In this document: one piece after another, positions 41,303 to 56,185 of the stretch
Numbering within the stretch: position 1 is the stretch's first letter
How the letters are laid out: every line of letters starts with the position of its first letter
Notes under the pieces: model-generated
Seen by the model: only the letters and a program-made list of their open reading frames with translations
What the model was told of the DNA's origin: nothing
Database searches by the model: none
Assembly (NCBI GenBank): GCA_017395365.1
Contig: JAFPUN010000008.1
Span: 1 to 64,000, forward strand
Direction: 5' to 3'
Length of the DNA: 64,000 bases
Source: Bacteroidales bacterium
GTDB taxonomy: Bacteria > Bacteroidota > Bacteroidia > Bacteroidales > F082
Translations under genes and position numbers: made by a program

Positions 41303-41333
41303 TCCTTGTAGAGACGCGATTCATCGCGTCTCC
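41298..41333. repeat. Left direct repeat of the RAYT 1 unit, contains a family-A REP
   Basis: These 36 bases start GTTAATCCTTGTA and continue with REP arms GAGACGCGAT and ATCGCGTCTC around TC. They are identical to 42175-42210. Confidence 0.93.
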
Positions 41334-41356: not shown

Positions 41357-41932
41357 TCAAGAATTCATTTCATCTTCCGGCCATTTAACCACATTCTTCT
41401 CCACATACAAGGCGGTTTCGTTCAAATCCTTTTGATCCCGAATAATACGATCATGGAAACGCGATTGCCATGCAAATTCAATACCTTTCTCATTGGCATA
41501 ATGTGTAACACGGGCCTTTAACCCACGAATCACCGTTCCAAGGCTTCTATACAACATTGGATTGTTATTTCCCGTGACTCCACCTCTCTCTTTGTTTGAT
41601 TCCACCGGCAATTCTGGTCCAGAGACGCGATGAATCGCGTCTCTACAGGTATCACGCCGGTCATTAATAAAGACGATGGCGTGAATATGATTTGGCATTA
41701 CCACATATACAGGTATTTCTGCATAAGGATAATTCAAAGAGACATCTCGAAATTGCTCATCGGCGTATCTTCCTATTTCCGACAAACACATTTGTTCTTC
41801 ATTAATCTTTCCAAAATAGAATCCACGATCCTTTGTGCAGATGGTGACAAAATACGCTCCGCCAAGATAATCATGCCATGAGGCACGTGCTGAAGGAATA
41901 CGATAACGGTCTTTGAATTTGATTTCGGACAT
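41357..41932 (-). CDS. RAYT 1: REP-associated tyrosine transposase (Y1/HUH)
   Basis: RAYTs are single-copy Y1 transposases that bind and cut REP palindromes. The HUH motif is PNHIHAIVF (H82, H84), and the catalytic tyrosine with its +4 partner is Y176-VEK-N180. RIPSARASWHDY, YFVTICTKDR and WQSRFHDRIIRD are typical of the Bacteroidota group. Residues 96-104 (CRDAIHRVS) are encoded by a family-A REP lying inside the gene, between the HUH strand and the next helix. I chose MSEIKFKDRYR at 41932 (191 residues); upstream the frame continues through tandem half-REPs. The whole unit is bounded by identical 36-base repeats. Confidence 0.92.
   Translation of the reverse strand: MSEIKFKDRYRIPSARASWHDYLGGAYFVTICTKDRGFYFGKINEEQMCLSEIGRYADEQFRDVSLNYPYAEIPVYVVMPNHIHAIVFINDRRDTCRDAIHRVSGPELPVESNKERGGVTGNNNPMLYRSLGTVIRGLKARVTHYANEKGIEFAWQSRFHDRIIRDQKDLNETALYVEKNVVKWPEDEMNS
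41622..41643. repeat. Family-A REP inside the RAYT 1 coding region
   Basis: Arms GAGACGCGAT and ATCGCGTCTC surround GA, followed by TACAG. It is the inverted orientation of the copies at 41311 and 42188 and is translated as RDAIHRVS. Confidence 0.95.
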
Positions 41933-41979
41933 GTTTCCTAGGTTTCTTGTGTATGGTTTTTGCTTTTTCAATCTTTTTC

Positions 41980-42131
41980 GAGACGCGATAATCGACATAT
42001 TTTGTATTTTCCGGTGTTTTTTGAGACGCGATAATTCGACGTATTTTGTATTTCCGGTGTTTTTTGAGACGCGATAAATCGACATATTTTGTATTTCCGG
42101 TATTTTTAGAGACGCGATAAATCGACGTCTC
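41980..42131. repeat. Three 43-base tandem units plus a terminal REP, upstream of RAYT 1
   Basis: Units begin at 41980, 42023 and 42066, each GAGACGCGATAA..TCGAC then ATATTTTGTATTTCCGG and a T run. A fourth GAGACGCGATAAATCGAC at 42109 ends in the normal right arm GTCTCTACAG. Each unit has a left REP arm but replaces the right arm with a constant AT-rich spacer. This fills the gap between the two minus-strand genes and forms the leader of RAYT 1. Confidence 0.93.
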
Positions 42132-42156
42132 TACAGACGAAAACATTCATTAAACA

Positions 42157-44514
42157 TCATTTTTCTCCCAAAACGTTAATCCTTGTAGAGACGCGATTCA
42201 TCGCGTCTCCATTAATCGCGTCTCCATTAATCGCATCAGAACAACCGCCTACCATAATGGCGAAATCGCCAGGCTCCACATACCAGCCGTTTTCCTTTGA
42301 ATACACGGCCAAATCACCTTGCATGAGGTAGAAATTGACTTCCTTCGTTTCACCTTTATTAATATGCACTCTTTGGAAACCTTTCAAGAGTTTGGAGGCA
42401 GGCGCGATAGAGGCCACTTCGTCGCGGACATAGAGCTGGACGACCTCGTCGCCATCACAAGGACCGATGTTTTTGACATTGCATGAAACACGGAAGATCG
42501 TATCGTATGGTTTCAAGACTCCTTCATTCGAGACGCGATGAATCGGCGTCTCTACATGAATTTCGCTGTATTCGAACTGGGTATAACTCAAACCATAGCC
42601 GAAGGGGAACAAAGGCTTGGCGGTTTCCTCCACATAATCACCCATGACAGGCTGGGAGTAATAGACAGGAATCTGTCCCACGGAACGCGGAATGGAAATC
42701 GGCAGACGGCCAGCGGGATTGTAGTCGCCCCAAAGGATGTCGGCCAAGGCGGAACCGCCTTCCATGCCGGGATACCAGAGTGTCAGAAGGGCGTTGGATT
42801 GCTCGGCGGCGAGATTCATGTCCAACGGGCGGCCTTGAATGTAAACGGTCACAACGGGTTTACCTATGGCATAAATGCGCTGCATCAGTTCCTCCTGCTT
42901 GCCCAAAAGCTTCAAAGTGGAGCGGTCGTAACCCTCGCCGCAGTCCATGTCAGAAACGGACTCGCTGACAATGGCGGCACCAGTTTCCTCATAGCTTGTC
43001 TTGAAATCACGGGCGGAAGAGCCTCCCACAACCAACACCACCACATCAGCGGCCTTGGCGATTCTGACCGCCTCGTCGATGTTGGCATCGTTTTCGTCGC
43101 GGATGGCACAGCCTTTGGCGTAGGTCACCTCTGCCCTGCCCTTTTCGCGGATGCCTTCGAGCATGGTCACGATGCGGTCGGGGTCTTGGGGCGCAGTGTA
43201 GTCGCCCAACTGGTTGTACATATTGTCGGCATTCGGCCCAATGACCGCCACCTTATTAATATGTTCGTCAAAAGGCAAGATGCCATCATTTTTCAGCAAT
43301 ACCGCTGATTCCAAAGCCACTTGCTTGGCCAATTGGGCGTTTTCTTTCGTGCCCACCTCGGCTTCGGCCAATGCCTCATCGACATAGGGATTGTCAAACA
43401 AGCCAAGGTTGAACTTGAGTTGCAACACATGGCGTACGGCGCGGTCGATGTCGGCTTCGGTGACGAGACCTCGCTGCAGGGCCTCTTTCAAGAAACCGCC
43501 GTAGTTGAATCCGCCCAAATCTATGTCGACACCAGCTTTTAAAGCCATGGCAGCGGCTTCGGCGGGGTCAGCGGCCACATGTTGCGTTGCATAGATGGCA
43601 TTCACAGCATTCAAATCAGAGAAAACCACACCTTTGAAGTCCCATGAGTTGCGCAGAATGTCTTGCAAAAGCCAGGTATTGGCCGAGCAAGGCACGCCAT
43701 CAATGGTGTTATAGGAAGTCATTACGGATTTGGCGCCACCGAACACAACGGCTCGCTCAAAAGCAGGCAGATACTCCGTCATCAGACGATTGGGGCCGAC
43801 ATCCGCTGTGGCGGCATTGTGTCCACCTTGCGGAATGCCGTAGGCAGCCAAATGCTTCAAGGTAGCGCAAACATTTTTCTGCATTCCTTGCACGATGGCT
43901 GCACCCAAAACACCGGAGAGATACGGGTCTTCGCCCATGGTCTCCTCCACCCTCGACCAACGCGGGTCGCGGGCGATGTCGAGAACAGGACCATAACCAA
44001 TTTGTGCGCCTTGAAGTCGCACCTCCTTGCCCATTATCTCGCCCATTTGTTCCAAAAGGTCGCAATCCCAAGTGCTGGCTTGACCAATACCCGTCGGGAA
44101 AACGGTCGTCCCCACGGCCATGTGGCCATGAGGTGTCTCTTCGCAAAACAAAAGCGGGATGCCAAGACGTGTGTTCTCAACAGCGTGGCGTTGCATCATG
44201 TTCAGCAGCCTCGCCGACTCGCGCGGCTTCAAACCCGTCTCCACAGTCTTCCGCGACCATGGATCGGCACGAAGCACCGCCCAGCACGAGCCGAGTGGTA
44301 GAGTATCCATCATGCCAACAAAATCCTCAGCGAGCCACAGCGAATCGCCGTCCTTGCCAAAGAAATTGAAACCTATCGGGCAGGACAATTGGCCGCATTT
44401 CTCTTCGAGAGTCATTTGGTTAATGAGTTCCGAAACACGATCTTTCCTATTGCAGGAAACAGTTGCAATCGCCACAAAGACCGTTATGTAAAAAAGCAGA
44501 AGTCTATTTTTCAT
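42157..44514 (-). CDS. GH3 beta-glycosidase (BglX-like) with REP-derived segments
   Basis: A lipobox-like signal (IATVSCNRKD) suggests a lipoprotein. The GH3 N-domain has KHLAAYG, MTSYNTIDGVP and the nucleophile aspartate in GVVFSDLNAV; the second domain has KNDGILPF and VLVVGGSSARDF; the third is fibronectin III-like (VVQLYVRDEVASI). The usual targets are beta-glucosides or xylosides. About residues 654-662 (VETPIHRVS) and the last 27 residues (SDAINGDAINGDAMNRVST onward) come from family-A REPs, so the native C-terminus appears to have been replaced. Start 44514 (785 residues) overlaps the preceding gene by 11 bases. Confidence 0.88.
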   Translation of the reverse strand: MKNRLLLFYITVFVAIATVSCNRKDRVSELINQMTLEEKCGQLSCPIGFNFFGKDGDSLWLAEDFVGMMDTLPLGSCWAVLRADPWSRKTVETGLKPRESARLLNMMQRHAVENTRLGIPLLFCEETPHGHMAVGTTVFPTGIGQASTWDCDLLEQMGEIMGKEVRLQGAQIGYGPVLDIARDPRWSRVEETMGEDPYLSGVLGAAIVQGMQKNVCATLKHLAAYGIPQGGHNAATADVGPNRLMTEYLPAFERAVVFGGAKSVMTSYNTIDGVPCSANTWLLQDILRNSWDFKGVVFSDLNAVNAIYATQHVAADPAEAAAMALKAGVDIDLGGFNYGGFLKEALQRGLVTEADIDRAVRHVLQLKFNLGLFDNPYVDEALAEAEVGTKENAQLAKQVALESAVLLKNDGILPFDEHINKVAVIGPNADNMYNQLGDYTAPQDPDRIVTMLEGIREKGRAEVTYAKGCAIRDENDANIDEAVRIAKAADVVVLVVGGSSARDFKTSYEETGAAIVSESVSDMDCGEGYDRSTLKLLGKQEELMQRIYAIGKPVVTVYIQGRPLDMNLAAEQSNALLTLWYPGMEGGSALADILWGDYNPAGRLPISIPRSVGQIPVYYSQPVMGDYVEETAKPLFPFGYGLSYTQFEYSEIHVETPIHRVSNEGVLKPYDTIFRVSCNVKNIGPCDGDEVVQLYVRDEVASIAPASKLLKGFQRVHINKGETKEVNFYLMQGDLAVYSKENGWYVEPGDFAIMVGGCSDAINGDAINGDAMNRVSTRINVLGEK
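42175..42240. repeat. Right direct repeat of the RAYT 1 unit plus partial REPs
   Basis: 42175-42210 is identical to 41298-41333. It is followed by two further right arms, CATTAATCGCGTCTC and CATTAATCGCATCAG, giving a 15-base repeat translated as DAING in the GH3 C-terminus. Confidence 0.93.
42530..42552. repeat. Family-A REP inside the GH3 gene
   Basis: GAGACGCGAT, loop GA, then ATCGGCGTCTC, which has one extra G in the right arm. Flanking TACATG matches the TACA that follows other copies. It is read in frame. Confidence 0.92.
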
Positions 44515-45247
44515 CTTGCTGCATTTCCTTTTGTTTTTGTTTAGCAAACCAACTTGGCATCAAAGATTTAGCCAGTTTCAATTTCTTATCAAGAGGTTTA
44601 TCAAACAAAATACGCTGCACTTCTTCAGGAGTAGTGGCATAATCTTTATAAGTATCCAACAATTGGTCAACTCTTTGACGCCACTCATCGTACGCTCCTT
44701 CTCTATTTACGAGATAGACATCATGCGAGTATCGTGCAATAACAGTATCACGAATGGCCATGGCTTCTTCATAAAAACTCAAGAAAAAGAAAGTACATTC
44801 ATTATCGCAATGAAGGTTAAAACTATCCAAGAAATGATGAAATTGATATTTCATATAACGAGCCGTTAGTTCGTCAATATCAAACACCAATTGTTGTTTT
44901 GCAAAATCCAAGGAATCTGCAGTGGAAGAATAGCATGAAATGTTCTTTTGAAAAAGAGGAGAAACATAGAGCTTCTCATAATACTTGCCAGGCTTATACC
45001 TTCCTTTTCGCGCATCAACCCTATAAAAGACACCTGTAGCAGCATTCACACATAGCCCTACTTTATCACAGTATTTTTGATGTCTGGGATCATTATTAAA
45101 ATCACCCTGATAATCTTCCTTGGTCAAACGCCTATCGGGTTGCCATCCAATATGCGTTTTTGATTCATTCTGATAAACTTGCTCTTTTTGTGCCTGAATG
45201 GAAGTCACAAAAAAACAAAGACATAAAAGCAATAGGGTCTTTTTCAT
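44504..45247 (-). CDS. Exported hypothetical protein, 247 residues
   Basis: A signal peptide (MKKTLLLLCLCFFVTSIQAQ) is followed by a soluble, mostly helical protein rich in Y, K and D. The early part (ESKTHIGWQPDRRLTKEDYQGDF) and the two-cysteine stretch LHCDNEC are the only distinctive features; I do not recognise the family. Some similar Bacteroidota proteins are thought to be zinc-independent secreted metallo-like domains, but no HExxH motif is present here. Base composition is more AT-rich than the neighbouring genes, which may indicate recent arrival. It lies between ddh and the GH3 gene in one operon. Confidence 0.7.
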   Translation of the reverse strand: MKKTLLLLCLCFFVTSIQAQKEQVYQNESKTHIGWQPDRRLTKEDYQGDFNNDPRHQKYCDKVGLCVNAATGVFYRVDARKGRYKPGKYYEKLYVSPLFQKNISCYSSTADSLDFAKQQLVFDIDELTARYMKYQFHHFLDSFNLHCDNECTFFFLSFYEEAMAIRDTVIARYSHDVYLVNREGAYDEWRQRVDQLLDTYKDYATTPEEVQRILFDKPLDKKLKLAKSLMPSWFAKQKQKEMQQDEK

Positions 45248-45261
45248 GTTTTTTATTTATG

Positions 45262-46161
45262 TTACACTAGTTTCCCAATCCATTCCTCGCGGTCGCCGGG
45301 GAGCATGTCGACGACGGGGATCTCCACCATCGTGTAGCAGCCTGGTTGCAAGCGCATCGTAGCGCGGGCCACGTTGACCAGCACCTGTCCCGTCAAAGCG
45401 GGATTATTGATGCTCATGTTGAACTCCAAGCGTTGGTTGGCGGTCTTGCCCGAGACGCCTTTGCGCACGAGGTTCACGCCATGGCCCATGTCGCGCACGG
45501 CATCGACGCTGTCAACGGCAAACACATGGGTCTCGTCGTTGGCGAAATACGGGTCAGCCTTGATGTCCTTGGTCACCTGTTCGAGGGTGGCGCCGTCTTC
45601 GAGTTCCACATACACCATGCGGCGGTGGATGCCTTCGCCCAGCGGAATCGTAACGGAAAGGGCGTTTTTCACGCCTTTCTTGCCACGCACGCAGACGCTG
45701 TGACCCATCGACATGCCAGGACCGAAGTTAGTGTAGGACAAGCCTTTAGGAGCCAAACTCTGCATCAAGGTACGGACGATGGAATCCGAACCCGGATCCC
45801 AGCCCGCAGCGATGACGCTCACGGTCTTTGTTTCCTTATTAATAGGCATCAGCTCGCGGCGATAGTCGACGATGGACGTATGGATGTCGAAGGAATCCAC
45901 GGTGTTGATGCCCAAGGGCAGGATTTGTTTGGCAAATTCAGGGCAAGAACGCGTCGGTGTAGCCAGAATTGCCACATCCACGTCTTTCAGTTCTTTTATG
46001 TCTTTTACGACCTCATATTGAGACAGTTCCGAAGGCTTATTTTCTGCCCCACTGCGGCGCACGACACCTGCCACTTCGAAATCGGGGGCGGCTTCAAGGG
46101 CTTCCAACGCGAAGCGGCCCACATTGCCGTAACCTACTACGGCGGCTCTGATCTTTTTCAT
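45262..46161 (-). CDS. ddh: meso-Diaminopimelate D-dehydrogenase
   Basis: The enzyme makes meso-diaminopimelate from tetrahydrodipicolinate, ammonia and NADPH in one step, feeding lysine and peptidoglycan synthesis. The Rossmann motif is VVGYGNVGRFALEAL, and RRSG supplies the NADPH phosphate contact. TPTRSCPEFAKQIL, DSFDIHTSI, AAGWDPGSDSIVR and GPGMSMGHSVCVRG are substrate-site segments of the family. The 299-residue length is normal. It heads a minus-strand operon with a hypothetical exported protein (14-base gap) and a GH3 glycosidase. Confidence 0.95.
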   Translation of the reverse strand: MKKIRAAVVGYGNVGRFALEALEAAPDFEVAGVVRRSGAENKPSELSQYEVVKDIKELKDVDVAILATPTRSCPEFAKQILPLGINTVDSFDIHTSIVDYRRELMPINKETKTVSVIAAGWDPGSDSIVRTLMQSLAPKGLSYTNFGPGMSMGHSVCVRGKKGVKNALSVTIPLGEGIHRRMVYVELEDGATLEQVTKDIKADPYFANDETHVFAVDSVDAVRDMGHGVNLVRKGVSGKTANQRLEFNMSINNPALTGQVLVNVARATMRLQPGCYTMVEIPVVDMLPGDREEWIGKLV

Positions 46162-46181
46162 TTGTTCGAGTTTTAAAGGAG

Positions 46182-46189
46182 CAAAATTA
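46182..46189 (-). promoter_or_regulatory. -7 box for the ddh operon
   Basis: CAAAATTA is TAATTTTG on the minus strand, 21 bases upstream of the ddh start. Confidence 0.5.
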
Positions 46190-46285
46190 GGAAAAAAAAC
46201 CTTGGTTCACCCACCCTCATCACTTTTATCCTAAAAATCAGCGACAATGTAGGCCCTCCTTATATAACGGATTCATTTTTTGTTG

Positions 46286-46293
46286 TATTTTTG
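46286..46293 (+). promoter_or_regulatory. -7 box for the C25-GH3-C25 operon
   Basis: TATTTTTG fits TAnnTTTG, 19 bases upstream of the ATG at 46312. No -33 TTTG at normal spacing. Confidence 0.5.
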
Positions 46294-46311
46294 CAACCAA
46301 ATTTTTTAAAA

Positions 46312-49300
46312 ATGAAGAGATTAAGTCTATTCCTCACTTTATTGGCCATCGCTCTTTTCGCGCAGGCCGAAACCATCCAACATGTTTATCATTTCAGCCA
46401 GCCCATCGTCAGCGAACGCGACAGCTACCAACAAATCGGATTCCAAGGTTGCCTGCCCAACGGCACCGCGGGCGAGCCCACCCTGCCTTGGCAGAGTGTC
46501 AGCCTGATGCTGCCTCAAGGGCAAGAGGCTGTGGCAGTCAATGTGACTTTCTCCGACTTTATGGAGCTGGAAGGTTCATTCAACCTATATCCCTACCAAC
46601 GGCCTCGTCCCATATCCAACGAAGAGGAGATCCCCTTCGCAAAAAACGAGGCTCTCTACCGTTCGGAAAACATCTATCCTGCACAAAACTTCAGTAGCGT
46701 CAATACACAATACCTGAACGGTGTGGCCTTCGCTTTCTGTGGCTTCACGCCAGTGCACTATGTGCCCTCCACAGGCAAGGTCAGTTATGCCCGCACCGTG
46801 ACGGTAACCATCGAGACCGCGACGAGCCGCGATGACCATAGCCGCAAGCTCTGGCTGACGCCCGAAAACGAGCAATCCATCAAGCGCTTGGCACAAAACG
46901 CCAATATGCTGGGCACCTATTCCCATCGCAACCGTGCCATCGGCGGATACGACATGTTGGTCATCACCGCCGAGGAATGGGTTCCGCGTTTTGGCGAATA
47001 TCTCAACCTTTACAACGACAAGGGCATCCGCACCCGCATCGTGGCCTTGGAAGACATCTATGCCACCATGGAGGGTCGCGACCCACAAGAGCAAATCCGT
47101 AACTACATCATCCAGGAATACGAAACGAACGGCATCCAGATGGTGAGCATTGGCGGCGATGTGAGCATCGTCCCGTTCCGCTTCCTCTACTGCTGGGCAC
47201 AGGAAGGCGAAGAAGACCAACTCCCCTCCGACATGTACTATGCCTGCCTCGACGGATCCCTCAACGACGACGGCGATGACCGCTGGGGCGAAGTGGGCGA
47301 AGACGACCTGCTCCCTGAAATTGGCATTGGCCGTCTGCCCTTCAACAACGAGGCACAGTTCGAGACCATCATGCACAAGACCTTCAGCTACCTTCAGACT
47401 CCAGTCCTGGGTGAGTTCACCTCCCCCATCCTCGGCGCCGAGCACCTTGGCGACGGCTACTATGGCAACCTCGACATGGAACGCCTCATCGGTGAGGTGA
47501 ACGACTACGACTACACCACCTACGGCTATCCCGAAGACTACAACTTCAAGCGCTACTATGCCACTCCTCAACATGACTTCAGAGGCGGCGAATTCCGCAA
47601 TGTCATCATCACTGGAGGACAATATGTCCACCATGTAGGCCACGCCAACACCGACATCGTGGCAGGTTGGACAGGCAGTATGATGAGCGACAACTACTTC
47701 TCGGGCAACGACGGCATCCACCACAACTACATGCTGTTCCACTCCCATGGTTGCATCTGCGGCGACTTCGCTAGCAGCTGCGTCTTGGAGAAGCTCATCA
47801 CCATCCAGACGGGCTTCGTGGTCACCACGGGCAATTCGCGCTACGGCTGGTATGTGCCGTGGGGCGACGGCATGGCGGCCCACATCCACCGCGAGTTTGT
47901 GGATGCCTACTGCCACGACCTCATCCCCTCCGTCGGCATGGCCTTGCGCGAAGCCAAGATTGCCACAGCGCCTTGGGTGACTGCCTATGGCGAAGAAAAC
48001 GGATGCATGCGTTGGAACATCTATTGTCTCAATGTATTGGGCGATGCCGGCTTGTATCCTTGGTTTGAGGAACCGATCACCCCTGATGTCACCTACCAAC
48101 ACGGCATCCTCCAGGGCACTACAAGCACCATCGTCACCGTCAAGTCCCAAGACAGGGCTCTTGAAGGCTTCCGTGTCAGCATCTTCAAAGGCGAGGATCT
48201 GATTGCTTTCGGAATGACCGATGCCAACGGCAATGCGATACTTGAGTTTGCCGATCCCAACGAAGTGCTTGGCGAGCTGCGTCTCATCGTCACGGGACAA
48301 AGCGCTTGGCCGCAACAGCTTCCCATGACAGGACTCACAGAAGATGCACCTTTCCTCTTTGTTGAAGACTACGGCTATCAGGACTCGAACATCAACGGCA
48401 TCACCGAATATGGCGAGACCATCAACCTCACGCTCACCATCGCCAATCCAAGTCTGGTGGATATCGACAATGTGACCGTCGACATCGCTTGCGACGACCC
48501 GCAAATTGAAGTCACGCAAAGCCATTCGGAGCATGGCTCCATCCCAGCGGGAAGCAACCTCGTCACCGGCAATGGTGGCACTTTCGTCATCAGCGACACG
48601 GCTATCGACCAGTCACGCGTTGTGCTCCAAGTGAATTGCTCTGCTGATGGAAACACTTGGGTCAGCGAAATCCCGATGTATATCAGTGCCCCGGTCCTTC
48701 AATTCACCGACATCATGATTGATGACAGCGAGGGCGACGGCAATGGCTTCATCGACCCAGGCGAACATGTCATCATGCATGTCAGCGGAACAAACACGGG
48801 TCACACCCCTGCTCCCGACACCTATCTCACCGTGACTTGCCCGATTGAGGGACTCAACATGGAAGAGACCACCATCTACATCGGCGAGGTGGGCATTGAC
48901 GAAGACTTCACCGCCGACTTGGCCTTCACCCCCGACTACGACATCCCTGGGGGCACCACCTTCCATCTGGACATGGCCTTGCATACGGGTGCCTATGCCA
49001 CTCACCAGCAACACTCTGTTTCTGTCGGCACCGCCTTGGAGACCTTCGAAAGCGGCGACTTCAACTTCCTCGAATGGGCGCACACCGGCGACCAACCTTG
49101 GGTGGTCACTGACGAAGATGCGCATAGCGGCACCTACTGTGCACGCTCGGGCGCCATCGGCGATGACGAAGTGTCCAAACTCTACATCTTCGCCGACCTC
49201 TTTGTCGATGGTGAAGTCAGCTTCTGGTTCAAGACCTCGACGCAATACCACTACGACTACTTCGCCTTCATGGTCGACGGCAGAAAGAAAGAATGGTGGT

Positions 49301-49698
49301 CGGGCGAAAACGACTGGACCTATGCCAGTTTCGACCTGCCAGCGGGTCACCACTGCTTACTCTGGCTCTACGACAAGAGCCGCGAGAACCAGGCAGGCTC
49401 CGACTGCGCCTGGATCGACGACATCACCTTCCCACACGCCAGCATCGTCAACGCCGTGGTAGAAAGCGAGACGAAGAACCATGTCCTCTACCCCAACCCC
49501 TCGACGGGCCGCTTTACCCTCGAATTGGAAGAAGAGAGCCATGTCACCATCTACAATGTGTTGGGGCAAATCGTTATGACCATGAACCATGTTGCCGGCA
49601 CACAGCACATCGACCTTGGGAATGCCCCTAAAGGCCTTTACTTCGTGCAGATCGAGAGTGGCAACACTATCGACATCAAGAAAATCACCATAGAATAA
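46312..49698 (+). CDS. Secreted C25 (gingipain-like) cysteine protease, T9SS cargo, paralogue 1
   Basis: After the signal peptide (MKRLSLFLTLLAIALFAQA) comes a gingipain-type propeptide (about 20-205) and the C25 caspase-like domain. The catalytic dyad is H444 (HHVGHANTD) and C481 (SHGCICGDF, matching the CVNGD of RgpB). Residues 580-1050 are Ig-like and other beta domains, including a segment (about 910-1045) similar to gingipain adhesin modules (FESGDFNFLEW, CLLWLYDKS). The T9SS domain is 1055-1128 (LYPNPSTGRFTLELEE). Length 1128. It starts the operon with a GH3 gene (13-base gap). Specificity for Arg, Lys or another residue cannot be read by eye. Confidence 0.92.
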   Translation: MKRLSLFLTLLAIALFAQAETIQHVYHFSQPIVSERDSYQQIGFQGCLPNGTAGEPTLPWQSVSLMLPQGQEAVAVNVTFSDFMELEGSFNLYPYQRPRPISNEEEIPFAKNEALYRSENIYPAQNFSSVNTQYLNGVAFAFCGFTPVHYVPSTGKVSYARTVTVTIETATSRDDHSRKLWLTPENEQSIKRLAQNANMLGTYSHRNRAIGGYDMLVITAEEWVPRFGEYLNLYNDKGIRTRIVALEDIYATMEGRDPQEQIRNYIIQEYETNGIQMVSIGGDVSIVPFRFLYCWAQEGEEDQLPSDMYYACLDGSLNDDGDDRWGEVGEDDLLPEIGIGRLPFNNEAQFETIMHKTFSYLQTPVLGEFTSPILGAEHLGDGYYGNLDMERLIGEVNDYDYTTYGYPEDYNFKRYYATPQHDFRGGEFRNVIITGGQYVHHVGHANTDIVAGWTGSMMSDNYFSGNDGIHHNYMLFHSHGCICGDFASSCVLEKLITIQTGFVVTTGNSRYGWYVPWGDGMAAHIHREFVDAYCHDLIPSVGMALREAKIATAPWVTAYGEENGCMRWNIYCLNVLGDAGLYPWFEEPITPDVTYQHGILQGTTSTIVTVKSQDRALEGFRVSIFKGEDLIAFGMTDANGNAILEFADPNEVLGELRLIVTGQSAWPQQLPMTGLTEDAPFLFVEDYGYQDSNINGITEYGETINLTLTIANPSLVDIDNVTVDIACDDPQIEVTQSHSEHGSIPAGSNLVTGNGGTFVISDTAIDQSRVVLQVNCSADGNTWVSEIPMYISAPVLQFTDIMIDDSEGDGNGFIDPGEHVIMHVSGTNTGHTPAPDTYLTVTCPIEGLNMEETTIYIGEVGIDEDFTADLAFTPDYDIPGGTTFHLDMALHTGAYATHQQHSVSVGTALETFESGDFNFLEWAHTGDQPWVVTDEDAHSGTYCARSGAIGDDEVSKLYIFADLFVDGEVSFWFKTSTQYHYDYFAFMVDGRKKEWWSGENDWTYASFDLPAGHHCLLWLYDKSRENQAGSDCAWIDDITFPHASIVNAVVESETKNHVLYPNPSTGRFTLELEEESHVTIYNVLGQIVMTMNHVAGTQHIDLGNAPKGLYFVQIESGNTIDIKKITIE

Positions 49699-49711
49699 AA
49701 AAAACACCCAC

Positions 49712-51967
49712 ATGAAAAGAACAAGTCTTATTGCTTTGCTTTGCCTCGTTTGTTGCTTCAACCTTATTGCGCAGAATTCCAACAACATCATCCTCCGCGA
49801 AGACAATATTGACGAAGTCATCGCTGCGATGACCAATGAGGAAAAAGTTACCCTTTTGGTGGGAGGTCCTGGCGACCTTGTGCCAGGTGCTGCAGGCTAC
49901 ACTCGCGCCATTCCGCGACTTGGCATTCCCATGACAGTGCTTGCCGACGGTCCCGCCGGTCTTCGCATCCAGCCTAAACGCGAAGGCACTGACCAGACTT
50001 TCTATTGCACGGGATTCCCCACCAGCACGCTCCTCGCCAGTTCGTGGAATCCTGAACTCGTGGAAACCGTGACCACTGCCATGGGCAACGAAGTGCTGGA
50101 ATACGGTGTCGATGTGCTGCTCGCCCCAGGCATGAACCTGCACCGCAACCCACTCTGCGGCCGCAACTTCGAGTATTACTCCGAAGACCCTTTGCTCTCG
50201 GGCAAGATGGCTGCAGCCTACATCCGCGGCATACAAAAGAATGGCGTTGGCACCTCGGCGAAACACTTCGCCGCCAACAACCAAGAGACCAACCGTTTGG
50301 AAAACGACGCCCGCGTGAGCAACCGTGCCTTGAGAGAGCTCTATCTGAAGAACTTCGAAATTGCCGTCAAGGAAGGCAAGCCTTGGACGGTCATGTCGTC
50401 GTACAACAAACTCAATGGCGAATACACCCAGCAAAAACACGGCCTGCTGACCACCGTTCTCCGCGATGAATGGGACTTTGACGGCATCGTGATGACCGAC
50501 TGGGGCGTGAAGGACAACACCGTGAAAGCCACCAAGGCCGGCAACGACCTGATGGAATGGGGCAACCAAGTGGAGATTGACCGCATCCTTGCTGCCGTCA
50601 ACGATGGCACCATCAGCCAGGAAGAGCTTGACCGCAATGTACGTAACATGCTGCAATACATTGTCAAGACCCCACATTTCAAAGGTTACAAATACTCCAA
50701 CAAGCCCGACCTGAAAGCACACGCCCAAGTCGCGCGCAAGGCTGCCGAGGAATCCATCATTCTGTTACGCAACGAAGGTAACACCCTTCCGCTGAAAGGC
50801 AATGAAAAGTTGGCCCTTTATGGCCTCACCTCCGTCGACTTCGTGGGCATCGGAACGGGTTCTGGCGAAGTGAACACGGAACACATCGCCAATATGCAAG
50901 AAGCCATGAAAAGTGCTGGATTCACCTTGGACCAAAACCTGGCTGAGTTCTACCAACACTACTATGCGCAACAGGAAGCCATACAAAAGATGGAGCGAAA
51001 CAATCGTTGGGGCTATCGTAACATCCGTGAAGAAGCCGAGCTATCTGCCAGAGCCATCTCTTTGCAAGCCCAAGAAAACGATGTGGCAGTATATGTATTG
51101 GGTCGTAATGCCGGCGAGGGTGCCGACCGTGTCTTAAAAGACGATTTCGAGTTGAACACCACCGAGCGCGAATTGTTGCAAAACTTGAGCAGTGCCTATC
51201 ACGCTTTAGGCAAGAAGTTGGTCGTTGTGCTGAATGTCGGCGGCGTCATCGAGACGGCTTCGTGGAAGCACCTCGTCGATGCCATCGTTTTGCCCTGGTC
51301 GCCCGGACAAGAAGGTGCCTATGCCGTGGCGGATGTACTGACTGGCAAGGTGAATCCCTCGGGCAAATTGCCGATGTCTTTCCCGATGCGCTACATGGAC
51401 ATCCCTTCATCGAAGAACTTCCCCTACGGTCAAAACGCCTCGGGGCGTCGCGGCGAGCGTAAGGATGTCGATTTCACGAACTATGAAGAAGACATCTGGG
51501 TAGGCTATCGCTATTTCCAGACCAACAATGTAGAGGTCTCCTACCCCTTCGGCTATGGCTTGAGTTATACGACATTCAGCTACTCCAAGCCCAATGTGAA
51601 AGCCGACAAGGATGGCTTCACTGCTACCATCACTGTGACTAACACGGGCAAAGTGGCAGGGCGTGAAGTGGTTGAACTCTATGTTGCCGCTCCATCAGGA
51701 GGTCTTGAGAAGCCCGCCCGAGAATTGAAGGCCTTCGCCAAGACCAAATCGATGGCTCCAGGCGAGTCTGAAACATTGACAATGAAGGTCAGCGAATACG
51801 AATTGGCCTCTTTCAATGATGAGCATTCGGCCTGGGAGACTGCTTCGGGCACCTATCAAGTTATGTTTGGGGCTTCTGTTACCGATATCCGCGCCACGAC
51901 ATCATTCCGGCTCAACAAATCACAGTCATGGGAAGTGCATGATGTGTTGGGCAATCCTAAAGAGTGA
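49712..51967 (+). CDS. GH3 beta-glycosidase, exported
   Basis: A signal peptide (MKRTSLIALLCLVCCFNLIAQ) precedes a complete three-domain GH3 enzyme of 751 residues. Visible are LADGPAGLR, APGMNLHRNPLCGRNFEYYSEDP read in two parts, SAKHFAANNQE, the nucleophile aspartate in IVMTDWGVKDN, LLRNEGNTLPL in the second domain and PFGYGLSYTTF with a fibronectin III-like end. The split of the second domain by an insert (about 390-460) is as in BglX and PA14-less enzymes. It lies between two C25 proteases in an operon, so it may strip glycans from glycoproteins that the proteases then cut. That link is inference. Confidence 0.92.
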   Translation: MKRTSLIALLCLVCCFNLIAQNSNNIILREDNIDEVIAAMTNEEKVTLLVGGPGDLVPGAAGYTRAIPRLGIPMTVLADGPAGLRIQPKREGTDQTFYCTGFPTSTLLASSWNPELVETVTTAMGNEVLEYGVDVLLAPGMNLHRNPLCGRNFEYYSEDPLLSGKMAAAYIRGIQKNGVGTSAKHFAANNQETNRLENDARVSNRALRELYLKNFEIAVKEGKPWTVMSSYNKLNGEYTQQKHGLLTTVLRDEWDFDGIVMTDWGVKDNTVKATKAGNDLMEWGNQVEIDRILAAVNDGTISQEELDRNVRNMLQYIVKTPHFKGYKYSNKPDLKAHAQVARKAAEESIILLRNEGNTLPLKGNEKLALYGLTSVDFVGIGTGSGEVNTEHIANMQEAMKSAGFTLDQNLAEFYQHYYAQQEAIQKMERNNRWGYRNIREEAELSARAISLQAQENDVAVYVLGRNAGEGADRVLKDDFELNTTERELLQNLSSAYHALGKKLVVVLNVGGVIETASWKHLVDAIVLPWSPGQEGAYAVADVLTGKVNPSGKLPMSFPMRYMDIPSSKNFPYGQNASGRRGERKDVDFTNYEEDIWVGYRYFQTNNVEVSYPFGYGLSYTTFSYSKPNVKADKDGFTATITVTNTGKVAGREVVELYVAAPSGGLEKPARELKAFAKTKSMAPGESETLTMKVSEYELASFNDEHSAWETASGTYQVMFGASVTDIRATTSFRLNKSQSWEVHDVLGNPKE

Positions 51968-51999
51968 TTTATAAAACCTGACTCAATCATTAAATCTAT

Positions 52000-54900
52000 A
52001 TGAAAAAACTATCGTTGACTTTAATAGTGCTTGCCGTTAGCATCATGGCATCGGCACAAAGCATTACACACACTTATCATTTCAGCAAACCGACCGTTCA
52101 ACAAGTCGGTGAATACCAGACGCTCTCGTTTGAACAATCCGTACAAAACGGAACCGTCGGCGAGCCACAACTGCCCTGGCAGAGCATCAGCCTGATGCTG
52201 CCGCAAAACACCGAAGCCACCGCCATCCATGTGACTTTAAGTGACTTCGCGGAGCTGGACGGCCATTACAATCTCCTGCCTGCGCAAAAGGCGCGTCCCA
52301 TCTCGGACGACAGTCCTTTTGTCTTCGAGAAGAACGAAGCGCTTTACCGCTCCAACGAGGCCTATCCCAACAAGACTTTCAACACGGTCAGCACACAGGT
52401 GCTCAATGGCGTCTCGTTTGCCTTCGGCGGCTTCACACCCGTGAAATACAAACCCGCATCAGGCCAAGTCAGCTTTGCCCAGACTGTGACAGTCACCGTG
52501 GAATACCAGGCCTCTCGTGCCGACCACAGCCGTAAACTTTGGCTGCGTCCCGAGACGAGAAACAGCATCAGCAAATTGGCACAAAATGCCGAGCTGCTTG
52601 ACGGTTACGCCCGCCGCGACGGTGAATTGCCTGAATACGAGATGCTCGTCATCACGACGCAGGACTATGTGACGAACTTCAACGATTACATTGCCCTATA
52701 TGCAGGTCGCGGCATCCGCGTCCGTATCGCTACCACTCAAGAGATTTACGCGGCTATGACGGGTCGCGACAACAAGGAAAAGATCCGCAACTACATCATC
52801 GATGAATACGAGAAAAACGGCATCTCCATGGTGATGCTCGGCGGCGATGTCGATTTGGTGCCTTACCGTAGCCTATGGTGCCACGCCCAAGAAGGCTATG
52901 ACGACAACGTGCCTTCCGATAGCTATTACGCCTGCCTCGATGGCACCCTCAACGACGATGGCGACAACAAATGGGGCGAAATCGGCGAGGACGACCTCTT
53001 GCCCGAGCTATCCATCGCCCGTCTGCCATTCACCAATGCCAACCAACTGCAGACCATGCTCTCCAAGTCGTTCAGCTATATGACCTCACCGGTCTTGGGT
53101 GAGTTCCGCCGTCCCATCCTGGCCGGTGAGCACCTCGGCGATGGCGTGTATGCCAGCAATGACCTCGAGCGCCTTATCGGTGAGTGCAACTACAACGGCT
53201 ATACGACCTACGGCTATCCCGAAGACTATGATTTTGTGCGTGTCTATGAAACACCTACCCACGTTTGGGATCCTGACGAGCTTGCCGACGCCATCAACGA
53301 TGGCGTACAATTCGTGAACCACTTCGGCCATGCCAACACGAGTTATGTGTCGGGCTGGAGCAACTGGGACATCACACCTAGCCTATTCTATGGCGCCAAT
53401 GGCACTGACCACAACTACTTCATCTTCAAGAGCCAAGGCTGCATCTGCGGCGACTTCGCCGATGACTGCATCCTTGAACGCATGGTCGTGAACCAGACCG
53501 GCGCCGTGGCCGCCATCGGTAACTCGCGCTATGGATGGTACAACCAAATGGGCGACGGCCCCTCCAACCATTACCATCGCGAACTCATCGATGCTTACAA
53601 CCATGAGCGTTTGGCAGGGCTCGGTGCTGCCTTGAAAGAAAGTAAGATACAGACCTCGCCTTTCATCACTATGGATGGCGAGATTGGCGTTTTGCGTTGG
53701 ACTTTCTATGCCCTCAATGCCTTGGGCGATGTAGGCTTATGCGCCTGGTTCGACGAACCCTTTACACCTGAAATCGAGTGCGCCACCACCCTTCCCGTGG
53801 GCACCAACCGCATCCCCGTCACCGTGAATGACGAAGACGGCTACGGCATGTACAACTTCGAGTGTCGCTTGTTCAAAGGGGATGAACTGATCGCTTTGGC
53901 TTCCACCGATGCCAACGGCGAGGCAGAGCTTTGCTTTGCCGCCGTCAACAACACCGATGTCCTCGACCTTTTCATCACTGGCATGAACGGCTGGCCACAG
54001 CACCTTGAGCTTGGCTTTGACAACGCCAACTGCGCTCATGTGCTCTTCGACAATTACGCCCTCAACGACCCTGATGGGCAGGTTGACTTCGGCGAGAGCC
54101 AAACTCTCAATGTTGGCTTCCGCAACGTGGGTAACCTTGTAGCGAACAACGTCACGGCCACATTGAGTTGTGACGCTCCATATATTACCGTTACACAAGG
54201 CTCTGCCACAATTGGAACCGTAGACTCCCATGCTACCGTCAACCTTGACAACGCCTTCGCTTTCACCGTCAGCGATGATGTGCCCGACCAGACCGTGGTC
54301 ACTTTCACTTTGACCTGCACTGACGGCAGCAACACTTGGGAGAGCCATTTCGACATGACCCTCAACGCCCCTGGCTTTGGGCCTATCGCCACCCTATTAG
54401 AGGAAGTGGACGGCAATGGCAATGGCCATGCCGACAGCGGCGAGACCCTCACCTTGCATTTCACGGGCAAGAACATCGGCCACAGCATCTCACCCAATAC
54501 CATCTTCGGCGTCTACTGCTCTGCACCCGAAATCCTCTTCGATCAAAACCAATTCAATGTCGGTGACTTGGCCGTCGACGACACTTTCACCGTCGACTTC
54601 ACCATGAGCATCACTGATGCCAGAAATGCCACTGCATTCGAACTTATCCTGGCCACCTATTCGGGAAATTATGTCGTCTACGACTCCTATTTCATCAATG
54701 TGAACAGCGAGATGGAAGACTTTGAGTCGGGCGACTTCAGCAAGTTCGACTGGCAGTTTGAAGGCCAAGGCGGCTGGGAGATTGTAAGCCATGGTCCATA
54801 CGAAGGCCTATATTGCGCCCACACCATGCCGATGGATCACAGCAGCCATGCCGATATGAGCCTCGACTATGACTTCGCTTGCGACAACGAAATCAGTTTC

Positions 54901-55404
54901 TATGTGAAGACTTCAACAGAGACCGGCTATGACTTCCTCGTGTTTTATGTCGATGGTGAACGCAAAGGCCGTTGGGCTGGTGAAACCGGCTGGACCTACA
55001 TCAGCTTCATGATCCCAGAAGGCTCCCACCACCTCACTTGGAGCTACGAGAAAGATGGCGGCGCCACCGGCGGTCAAGACTGCGTGTGGGTGGACAACAT
55101 CGTACTGCCGCCTAGCGAAGTTGTGTTAGATGTGAATGAAAACGGCCCTTCGACTCCTTCGACAGGTTCAGGAACCGAGGGCTTAGGGACCTTCTCGATT
55201 TATCCTAATCCCTCAAACGGTGACTTCACCATAGAGTTGCGTCAAGCCTCAAATGTCATTGTTTTCAATGCCATGGGACAACAAATCCTCAGCATGGATG
55301 ATATGAATGGCTTGCAGCATCTCTATTTGGATGATACAGGCGTTTATTTTGTCCGTATCAGCAATGCCAATGGCGTTGAAGTGAAGAAAGTAGTGGTAGA
55401 ATAA
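52000..55404 (+). CDS. Secreted C25 cysteine protease, T9SS cargo, paralogue 2
   Basis: The layout follows paralogue 1: signal peptide (MKKLSLTLIVLAVSIMASAQ), propeptide, catalytic domain with H444 (HFGHANTSY) and C481 (QGCICGDFADD), beta-sandwich modules and T9SS domain (about 1065-1134, IYPNPSNGDFTIELRQ). Length 1134. Residues about 1050-1063 (GPSTPSTGSGTEGLG) are encoded by a family-C repeat and form the linker to the T9SS domain. It starts 32 bases after the GH3 gene with no promoter of its own, so it is the third gene of the operon. A REP lies 21 bases past its stop. Confidence 0.92.
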   Translation: MKKLSLTLIVLAVSIMASAQSITHTYHFSKPTVQQVGEYQTLSFEQSVQNGTVGEPQLPWQSISLMLPQNTEATAIHVTLSDFAELDGHYNLLPAQKARPISDDSPFVFEKNEALYRSNEAYPNKTFNTVSTQVLNGVSFAFGGFTPVKYKPASGQVSFAQTVTVTVEYQASRADHSRKLWLRPETRNSISKLAQNAELLDGYARRDGELPEYEMLVITTQDYVTNFNDYIALYAGRGIRVRIATTQEIYAAMTGRDNKEKIRNYIIDEYEKNGISMVMLGGDVDLVPYRSLWCHAQEGYDDNVPSDSYYACLDGTLNDDGDNKWGEIGEDDLLPELSIARLPFTNANQLQTMLSKSFSYMTSPVLGEFRRPILAGEHLGDGVYASNDLERLIGECNYNGYTTYGYPEDYDFVRVYETPTHVWDPDELADAINDGVQFVNHFGHANTSYVSGWSNWDITPSLFYGANGTDHNYFIFKSQGCICGDFADDCILERMVVNQTGAVAAIGNSRYGWYNQMGDGPSNHYHRELIDAYNHERLAGLGAALKESKIQTSPFITMDGEIGVLRWTFYALNALGDVGLCAWFDEPFTPEIECATTLPVGTNRIPVTVNDEDGYGMYNFECRLFKGDELIALASTDANGEAELCFAAVNNTDVLDLFITGMNGWPQHLELGFDNANCAHVLFDNYALNDPDGQVDFGESQTLNVGFRNVGNLVANNVTATLSCDAPYITVTQGSATIGTVDSHATVNLDNAFAFTVSDDVPDQTVVTFTLTCTDGSNTWESHFDMTLNAPGFGPIATLLEEVDGNGNGHADSGETLTLHFTGKNIGHSISPNTIFGVYCSAPEILFDQNQFNVGDLAVDDTFTVDFTMSITDARNATAFELILATYSGNYVVYDSYFINVNSEMEDFESGDFSKFDWQFEGQGGWEIVSHGPYEGLYCAHTMPMDHSSHADMSLDYDFACDNEISFYVKTSTETGYDFLVFYVDGERKGRWAGETGWTYISFMIPEGSHHLTWSYEKDGGATGGQDCVWVDNIVLPPSEVVLDVNENGPSTPSTGSGTEGLGTFSIYPNPSNGDFTIELRQASNVIVFNAMGQQILSMDDMNGLQHLYLDDTGVYFVRISNANGVEVKKVVVE
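55146..55192. repeat. Family-C repeat in the linker of a C25 protease
   Basis: CCCTTCGACTCCTTCGACAG then GTTCAGGAACC and GGGCTTAGGGACC match the family at 29694-29744. It is in frame. Confidence 0.85.
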
Positions 55405-55417
55405 ACCAAATTATTCC

Positions 55418-55447
55418 AATTCGTAGAGACGCAATGCTTTGCGTCTC
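55418..55447. repeat. Left direct repeat of the RAYT 2 unit, contains a family-B REP
   Basis: AATTCGTA then arms GAGACGCAA and TTGCGTCTC around TGCT. One base differs from 56110-56139. Confidence 0.92.
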
Positions 55448-55464
55448 TTATTACGCATCCGTCA

Positions 55465-56040
55465 TCAACGATAAAAATCGTCCTCCTTCCAATTCGCCAC
55501 ATTGTCCTCGATGTAATTTGCAATTGCATTCAATTCATCGACGTTCCGAACAATATGGTCATGGAAACGTGGTTGCCAATCAAATACGATATTGTTGGTG
55601 GTGGCATACGCCTTCGTGCCTATTTTTATACCACGAATGATTGATGCCAGATTCTTGGATTGTGGCGAAAACGTGTTGTTTATCGAATCGGAGACGCAAG
55701 GCATTGTGTCTCTACCAGTCGACACGCCATCATCATATTCCACAGGCGTATTATAAACATTATCTCCAATCACCACAATCAGATGGACATGATTAGGCAT
55801 TATTGAAAACAACGGAATCTCCACATTCATGTCTGCACGCATTTGTGAGGTAAGAAGAATTTGCTCGTTCAGGCATTTGCCCATTTCCGACATTTCCATG
55901 GCACCATCCACAATTCTTCCGAAATAATTCTCTCGGTTTTTCGTGCATATTGTCACATAATAGGTCCCACCATTGTATCGGTGCCACCACGCACGTGCAG
56001 ATGGGATTCTATAACGACCTTTATATTTCGTTTCATCCAT
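55465..56040 (-). CDS. RAYT 2: REP-associated tyrosine transposase (Y1/HUH)
   Basis: It is also 191 residues, with HUH motif MPNHVHLIVV (H84, H86), Y176 and N180 (YIEDN). RIPSARAWWHRY, YYVTICTKNR and WQPRFHDHIVRN are shared with RAYT 1, but the rest has diverged considerably. Residues 110-117 (RDTMPCVS) come from a family-B REP inside the gene, at the same loop as in RAYT 1. Family-B REPs flank it: one at 55418 past the stop, and an inverted pair at 56110 and 56164 before the start. The start MDETKYKGRYR is the only one available. Confidence 0.92.
   Translation of the reverse strand: MDETKYKGRYRIPSARAWWHRYNGGTYYVTICTKNRENYFGRIVDGAMEMSEMGKCLNEQILLTSQMRADMNVEIPLFSIMPNHVHLIVVIGDNVYNTPVEYDDGVSTGRDTMPCVSDSINNTFSPQSKNLASIIRGIKIGTKAYATTNNIVFDWQPRFHDHIVRNVDELNAIANYIEDNVANWKEDDFYR
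55691..55712. repeat. Family-B REP inside the RAYT 2 coding region
   Basis: GAGACGCAAGGC then ATTGTGTCTC keeps the arm pattern with two substitutions and loop GGCA. It is followed by TACCAG. Confidence 0.9.
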
Positions 56041-56109: not shown

Positions 56110-56139
56110 AATTCGTATAGACGCAATGCTTTGCGTCTC
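56110..56139. repeat. Right direct repeat of the RAYT 2 unit
   Basis: AATTCGTATAGACGCAATG then CTTTGCGTCTC, one base different from 55418-55447 and in the same orientation. Confidence 0.92.
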
Positions 56140-56163: not shown

Positions 56164-56185
56164 GAGACGCAAAGCATTGCGTCTC
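56164..56185. repeat. Family-B REP in inverted orientation
   Basis: Arms GAGACGCAA and TTGCGTCTC around AGCA make it the exact reverse complement of the 55426-55447 core. With 56110-56139 it forms an inverted REP pair, 24 bases apart. Confidence 0.93.

Follow-up and report, generated by a model that had tools for sequence, protein, structure and literature searches.

Why should a transposase gene carry, within its own coding sequence, the palindromic repeat that also flanks it? The question is raised by two RAYT genes in the window (the whole stretch of 64,000 nucleotides analysed here), in each of which an earlier note had placed an internal REP, suggesting that it is either under selection, through autoregulation, or sits in a preferred and harmless insertion loop. 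The novelty implied there is unsupported: REP insertions within this class of RAYTs were published in 2018 (Quentin et al., 2018; PMC6006769) and, going by the main-text passages of that paper, REPs inside RAYT genes are already described in kind, the present loci adding new members. No other paper on REPs inside RAYT genes was recognised in the literature searched by title and abstract start, and the main-text passages of PMC6006769 contain neither the use of two frames, nor REPIN feet in the loop, nor the density comparison, nor the own-flank statistics given below.

Two RAYT genes and their internal repeats

RAYT 1 (41357-41932) and RAYT 2 (55465-56040) have the coordinates first proposed for them; the strand, left unstated in the original claim, is minus for both, and each encodes 191 residues. 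RAYT 1 is recognised as a TnpA-REP, HUH/Y1 transposase-like protein by profile, predicted fold and PDB match, and RAYT 2 by Pfam and NCBIfam profiles and by its alignment to RAYT 1 (41% identity). Their HUH motifs read MPNHIH and MPNHVH, respectively, and H82, H84 and Y176 are without variation across 37 aligned sequences, so that both the HUH motif and a downstream catalytic tyrosine are present. The nearest solved structure to RAYT 1 is 4er8 (E 1.8e-6, TM 0.51), which shows a TnpA-REP in complex with a REP hairpin and is also the sole sequence-profile match of RAYT 1 in the PDB (2.3e-7, spanning just positions 129-176). The NCBIfam profile REP_Tyr_transpos (NF047646) gives 59.8 bits for RAYT 1 and 44 bits for RAYT 2, below its curated cut-off of 80, with each match split into two stretches, as expected from a loop that splits the domain; Pfam Y1_Tnp matches RAYT 2 at 24 bits (cut-off 23) and does not match RAYT 1 at E 1. 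The REP-bearing loop probably accounts for these low scores. In the AlphaFold2 model of RAYT 1, residues 94-124 have pLDDT values below 50 and lie between a strand (82-89) and a helix (131-148); the loop linking the HUH strand to this helix is thus predicted to be disordered. The RAYT 1 frame stays open into an upstream array (ORF 41357-42085) in which decayed family-A REP-like units are seen by eye (41933-42130), and automatic annotation may lengthen the gene accordingly.

The palindrome of family A (GAGACGCGAT..ATCGCGTCTC) stands exactly, as GAGACGCGATGAATCGCGTCTC, at 41622-41643 in RAYT 1, where it yields residues 96-104, CRDAIHRVS (REP part: RDAIHRVS), just as the earlier note had read it. 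It is a perfect palindrome save for its two-base centre, with the GTAG foot intact on the 5' side of the coding strand and the CTAC foot decayed. The family-B REP proposed for RAYT 2 is likewise there, at 55691-55712, encoding RDTMPCVS (residues 110-117), though imperfect and partly decayed, with GTGTCTC instead of GCGTCTC. Further REPs of the same families flank both genes: family A downstream of RAYT 1 (41311-41332) and upstream of it, inside the 3' end of a GH3 gene (42188-42209), and family B downstream of RAYT 2 (55426-55447) and upstream as a pair (56118-56139 and 56164-56185), whose second member is inverted, in a REPIN-like manner. With search patterns that overlap and were each allowed up to three mismatches, the family-A pattern has 6 matches in the window (2 being family-B sites) vs 0.01 expected, and the family-B pattern 9 (4 being family-A sites) vs 0.02. 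The source genome (2.11 Mb, 72.6% complete) holds 102 palindromes of REP type vs 2 for a control pattern, so the flanking REPs do recur. Family B is rare away from RAYT 2, with one further copy listed, on C21, and none in 400 kb of the source genome.

A protein search of the source genome returned three RAYTs, the third of which (L007) is 54% identical to RAYT 1 and extends the observation of an in-frame REP after the HUH strand: its equivalent loop holds GTAGAGACGGTGTGCACACCGTCTCTAC, of a third REP family, identical at 28/28 bases to its upstream flanking copy. All three RAYTs of the genome thus have an internal REP, and in each case it belongs to the same family as the flanking REPs. That the first two inserts occupy an equivalent place is right as regards the loop and wrong as regards the site, the REP lying about 26 residues from the next helix in RAYT 1 and about 13 in RAYT 2; these different positions rule out one ancestral insertion site for both. 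By Pfam Y1_Tnp, the source genome has five other Y1 genes, which are without a GTAGAGACG-type REP inside the matched stretch. A different palindrome family, CAATCTGCG..CGCAGATTG, stands beside two of these (L004, 1018-1038 and 1819-1839; L005, 513-533 and 1363-1384). A scan of viral contigs found no RAYT relatives.

In-frame REPs are a general feature of the source genome. In 400 kb we counted 24 AGACG..CGTCT palindromes, 10 of them in ORF tiles (one of these, at 311231, by chance), and Pfam assigned the REP-bearing ORFs to LptD, U32 peptidase, PhoH, Vsr and α-L-rhamnosidase, with one ORF left without a family. At about 0.03 per kb of coding DNA, in-frame REPs are some 200 times rarer there than in RAYT loops, a rough figure, as scan criteria and genomes differ. 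Individual host genes show a range of forms: the GH3 glycosidase of the window (42157-44514, minus strand) encodes VETPIHRVSN from a REP read in frame at 42528-42554 and ends in a C-terminus derived from a REP (DAINGDAINGDAMNRVST); the U32 peptidase gene (L197, 15855-17639, minus strand) holds REPs of different families in two frames, four of them picked up by the scan and one more by eye; and a Vsr mismatch endonuclease (L202, 11310-11855) has an in-frame REP (VETRLIASLP) right at the end of its Pfam domain. One core, GCGGCGCGCCAC, with 7 copies in the 400 kb (L193-L212), corresponds to no RAYT among the three found, and the RAYT for it may lie in the unassembled part of the genome.

Loops and flanks among relatives

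Matches to RAYT 1 occur in 70 of 99 genomes of the genus, its own included. We sampled 29 new loci and 60 further listed places from the genus, leaving out weaker, fragmentary and unlisted matches, and 80 loci out of at least 538 relatives from named genomes. Together, 172 loci gave 174 ORFs and 161 unique coding sequences, of which 8 lacked one or both motifs and were dropped, leaving 153. The relation of each loop to its surroundings was measured without recourse to palindromes, as 14-mers common to the coding sequence and its own 1.2-kb flanks. Such 14-mers occur in the loop in 67/153 sequences and elsewhere in the coding sequence in 15/153; they cover 13.9% of loop bases, vs 1.1% of the coding sequence before the loop and 0.4% after it. 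Loop 14-mers were shared with another locus's flanks in 2/152, 7/152 and 9/153 cases. Chance palindromes are ruled out by this test, which is independent of them.

Counted by palindromes, a cognate copy lies in the loop in 68/153 sequences and outside it in 13, several of the latter weak and probably due to chance; the palindrome scans overlooked the imperfect REP of RAYT 2, whose locus (L008) scored negative there and in the density count below. When loop REPs were picked blind to the flanks, 47/62 had a copy in their own 1.2-kb flanks (at most 2 mismatches over 18 bases), vs 10.6% of comparisons with other loci, and 15/62 had none. This supersedes an earlier count, in which 44 of 50 pairs favoured the own flank, 4 went the other way and 2 were tied, with REPs picked for their own-flank match and pairs that are not independent. 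The REP-in-own-RAYT phenomenon is real and common among relatives. The earlier note had proposed that a loop unrelated to flanking REPs in most relatives would speak against its idea, and here the outcome depends on the count: strictly, 86/153 loops are without an own-flank 14-mer, as that objection anticipated; by looser counts the loop holds a REP in 79/153 (family criterion) or 92/153 sequences, and in 70/105 loci with a flanking REP of the family.

Loop REPs are present in cultured isolates, namely Flavobacterium tagetis (L085), Dyadobacter jejuensis (L103) and Adhaeribacter soli (L112), the last two without a copy in the flanks, as well as in independent MAGs, which rules out an assembly artefact. 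The number of other REPs per genome has a median of 60 in 28 genomes whose RAYTs have AGACG loop REPs vs 34 in 26 genomes without (p 0.03, uncorrected and weak), and of 16 in the 45/99 genomes without a fetched full-length RAYT. A separate group of RAYTs (L161, L182-L184, L186, L188, L189, L192) has loops that reach 110 residues and contain GGCTGYC..GRCAGCC palindromes, as many as four in the case of L186.

Along the locus, REPs of the family are concentrated in the loop and in the DNA closest to the gene. Their density per kb upstream is 4.83 at 0-150 bp, 2.13 at 150-300, 0.36 at 300-600 and 0.12 at 600-1200; within the coding sequence it is 0.27 before the loop, 6.25 in the loop and 0.07 after it; downstream it is 4.79 at 0-150 bp and 0.74 at 150-300, falling to 0.16 and 0.07. 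The loop behaves like DNA beside the gene, and REP insertions account for the hypervariable loop of these RAYTs. Secondary in-gene sites are found at a β-hairpin turn near residue 45 (L060, L056, L114, L121/L123), which in the RAYT 1 model connects strands 41-44 and 47-50, in an N-terminal extension (L127) and at the C-terminus (L048).

Anatomy, reading frames and turnover of the inserts

The structure of the inserts was examined in 62 unique loops selected, regardless of flanks, for an AGACG..CGTCT palindrome; they hold one REP in 46 cases, two in 12 and three in 4. In 11/12 two-REP loops the outer GTAG and CTAC feet are exact, and in 10/12 there is no inner foot, even at one mismatch: these inserts have REPIN architecture. 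Both feet are exact in 26/46 single-REP loops. A possible relation between the two forms is seen in L040 (two REPs) and L137 (one), which are 98% identical outside the loop and in which the L137 REP is the product expected from a deletion in L040 spanning the first to the second REP, the direction of change not being established.

Among the 68 loci with cognate loop palindromes, the insert is read only as RD..VS in 32, only as VET..AS in 19, in odd-length or other forms in 13 and in a mixture in 4. The same core may be read in either frame, as in GCGATTAATCGC, which gives VETRLIAS in Flavobacterium tagetis and RDAINRVS in L122, or GGTGTGCACACC, which gives GRDGVHTVST in L007 and ETVCTPS in L090. 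The use of two frames for identical cores means that it is not the encoded peptide that is maintained, and selection at the peptide level is largely ruled out. The third frame of the GTAG foot reads TAG; two of the three frames of a GTAG-footed REP thus avoid a stop from the foot, and many insertions remain in frame.

REP cores differ even between close homologues, at 86% (L039/L160), 85% (L007/L155) and 83% (L134/L033) identity outside the loop, and each of these six loci has at least one loop core copied exactly (14 bases) in its own flanks. In L007, L155, L134, L033 and L034 the first REP starts at residue 92-93 throughout. On a tree built without the loop, with shuffled labels as reference, the presence of a loop REP (by the loose criterion, 92/153) changes at least 25 times, vs a mean of 48 and a lowest value of 38 in shuffles, and the frame changes at least 8 times (51 loci), vs 15.5 and a lowest value of 11. 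On this evidence from the tree, presence and frame of loop REPs are partly inherited and partly turning over. Decaying internal copies are seen in RAYT 2, L144, L041 and L067/L072.

Between homologues, REP bases are 93% identical (389/419) vs 87% for the rest of the loop (1678/1919), summed over the 15 of 21 pairs that are ungapped. RAYT 1 and L027 share 23/24 REP bases, while at four-fold sites outside the loop the figure is 21/47. A four-fold test across pairs (58/61 inside REPs vs 433/827 outside) is inflated, the REPs having been found via exact AGACG and CGTCT; the unconditioned values are 0.93 vs 0.87. Taken as sequence comparisons, these values suggest some upkeep or homogenisation of REP bases, not strong constraint.

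The genome G001 offers a separate observation. Its RAYT L168 (1100-1680) is, by eye, interrupted by a stop codon, and the genome has just 2 AGAGACG..CGTCTCT sites (at most 1 mismatch), one of them inside L168; as one of the two remaining sites lies within the cut RAYT, internal copies can outlast the REP population. The REP core of L168, GCGGCGCGCCAC, outnumbers every other core in the 400 kb of the source genome.

Probable local insertion and its alternatives

The reading we favour, with a probability of roughly 0.7, is that REPINs insert and turn over locally, at the locus of their own RAYT, and that a loop predicted to be disordered tolerates them. It draws on the own-flank matches, the REPIN feet of two-REP loops, the density profile, the differing cores of close homologues and the L040/L137 pair. 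Cognate REPs and REPINs would be inserted and replaced preferentially within a few hundred bases around the RAYT gene; we infer that the agent would be the RAYT itself, acting close to its own gene, and that the insertions would be near-neutral for the protein. Those landing within the gene would survive just where the protein tolerates them, chiefly in the loop between HUH strand and helix and sometimes at the residue-45 turn or the termini, such that the loop would amount to a piece of intergenic DNA within the gene, turning over together with the flanking REPs. Of the two possibilities raised in the earlier note, the preferred, harmless loop is upheld by the predicted disorder, the flank-like REP density, the two frames, the other sites and host genes and the decaying copies; selection is not needed, and what speaks, weakly, for it is that REP bases are somewhat better kept than other loop bases. 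That same conservation, together with the RAYT 1/L027 identity, also counts against local near-neutral insertion, hinting at upkeep or homogenisation over pure neutrality, as may the 15/62 loop REPs without an own-flank copy and the non-random frame on the tree, which inheritance would also give.

Autoregulation, in which recognition of the hairpin, in the RAYT's mRNA or in its single-stranded gene, by the RAYT or by a nuclease would limit RAYT production, is possible, though unlikely. It fits the predicted RNA hairpins (-17.6 kcal/mol for RAYT 1, -8.2 for RAYT 2 and -21.6 for L007), the tendency of loop REPs to match their own RAYT's flanks and the frozen REP sequence of the RAYT 1 clade, in which half of the four-fold sites elsewhere differ. 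Against it, the loop REP is facultative, being present in 79/153 or 92/153 sequences depending on the criterion, changing at least 25 times on the tree and being absent from 35/87 loci with two or more flanking REPs; the RAYT 2 copy is decaying, loop and flanks have equal REP density and unrelated host genes bear equivalent insertions. Quite improbable, in our view, is that a lineage-old loop REP has been homogenised, being rewritten in place along with its flanking copies, as the REP family changes, through gene conversion or through strand exchange driven by the RAYT. The five loci whose REPs start at residue 92-93 (L007, L134, L155, L033 and L034), in one frame and with different cores matching their own flanks, would be accounted for in this way, as would the constancy of feet and GAGACG/CGTCTC arms, but the picture would be identical if REPs had inserted independently at a favoured spot and then undergone deletion, and the own-flank comparison used flank-matched REPs and is partly circular. 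An elaboration of it, possible in principle and of similarly low probability, is that the RAYT keeps a substrate copy in its own coding sequence as a self-rewritten cassette, altered by REP strand exchange when the family changes, and that the embedded REPIN, hard to separate by recombination, would seed the REP population after transfer or loss.

It is highly improbable that the REP-encoded peptide serves the protein, for example in DNA recognition: all three RAYTs of the source genome have the RD..VS frame in the same loop and the tree shows fewer changes of frame than shuffles do (8 vs 15.5), yet identical cores are read as RD..VS and VET..AS, the loop is predicted to be disordered and 61/153 loops are REP-free even by the loose criterion. 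Scarcely tenable is the view that the inserts are old inherited loop sequence, REP-like by chance or common origin, or an artefact of assembly. REP presence does cluster on the tree (25 changes vs 48 in shuffles, lowest 38) and is in part inherited, but homologues of 83-86% identity have different cores, each matching its own flanks, 11/12 two-REP loops have REPIN feet, the own-flank match stands at 47/62 vs 10.6% for other loci, and the cultured isolates L085, L103 and L112 have loop REPs (in L103 and L112 without a flank copy).

As part of the local-insertion reading, the RAYT 1 and RAYT 2 loci would belong to tnpA-REP subclass 2.4, which is listed as Bertels's group 4 and which the main-text passages of Quentin et al. 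(2018; PMC6006769) describe as having double-foot and canonical REPs, about 194 residues and an occurrence in Cyanobacteria, Bacteroidetes and various other phyla. Of the subclass motifs NH[IFV]H, WQ and YIxNNP, the first two agree with RAYT 1 and RAYT 2 (NHIH/NHVH and WQ), as does the length of 191 residues, whereas the tyrosine motif reads YVEKNV and YIEDNV, with V in place of the subclass's P. The TnpA-REP of E. coli (PDB 4er8), the best fold match to RAYT 1 and by the literature likewise a REP-flanked gene, falls in subclass 2.2. Palindromic repeats in frame within genuine protein genes, single or dimeric as here, are known from the intragenic GTAG/CGTC REPs and from Rickettsia RPEs, according to passages of Di Nocera et al. 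(2013; PMC3733652); the hosts in those passages are other genes, whereas at the RAYT loci the host is the gene for the presumed transposase of the repeat itself.

Among the candidates for long-lived selfish elements of bacteria are RAYTs and REPINs, and the abstract of PMC8266576 describes the movement of REPs as poorly understood. Lying within the coding sequence of its own RAYT, a REPIN would preserve local insertion as an in-frame record, revealing the unit (a REPIN with outer GTAG feet, or its expected central-deletion product), the distance from the RAYT at which it lands, and the joint change of enzyme and repeat families.
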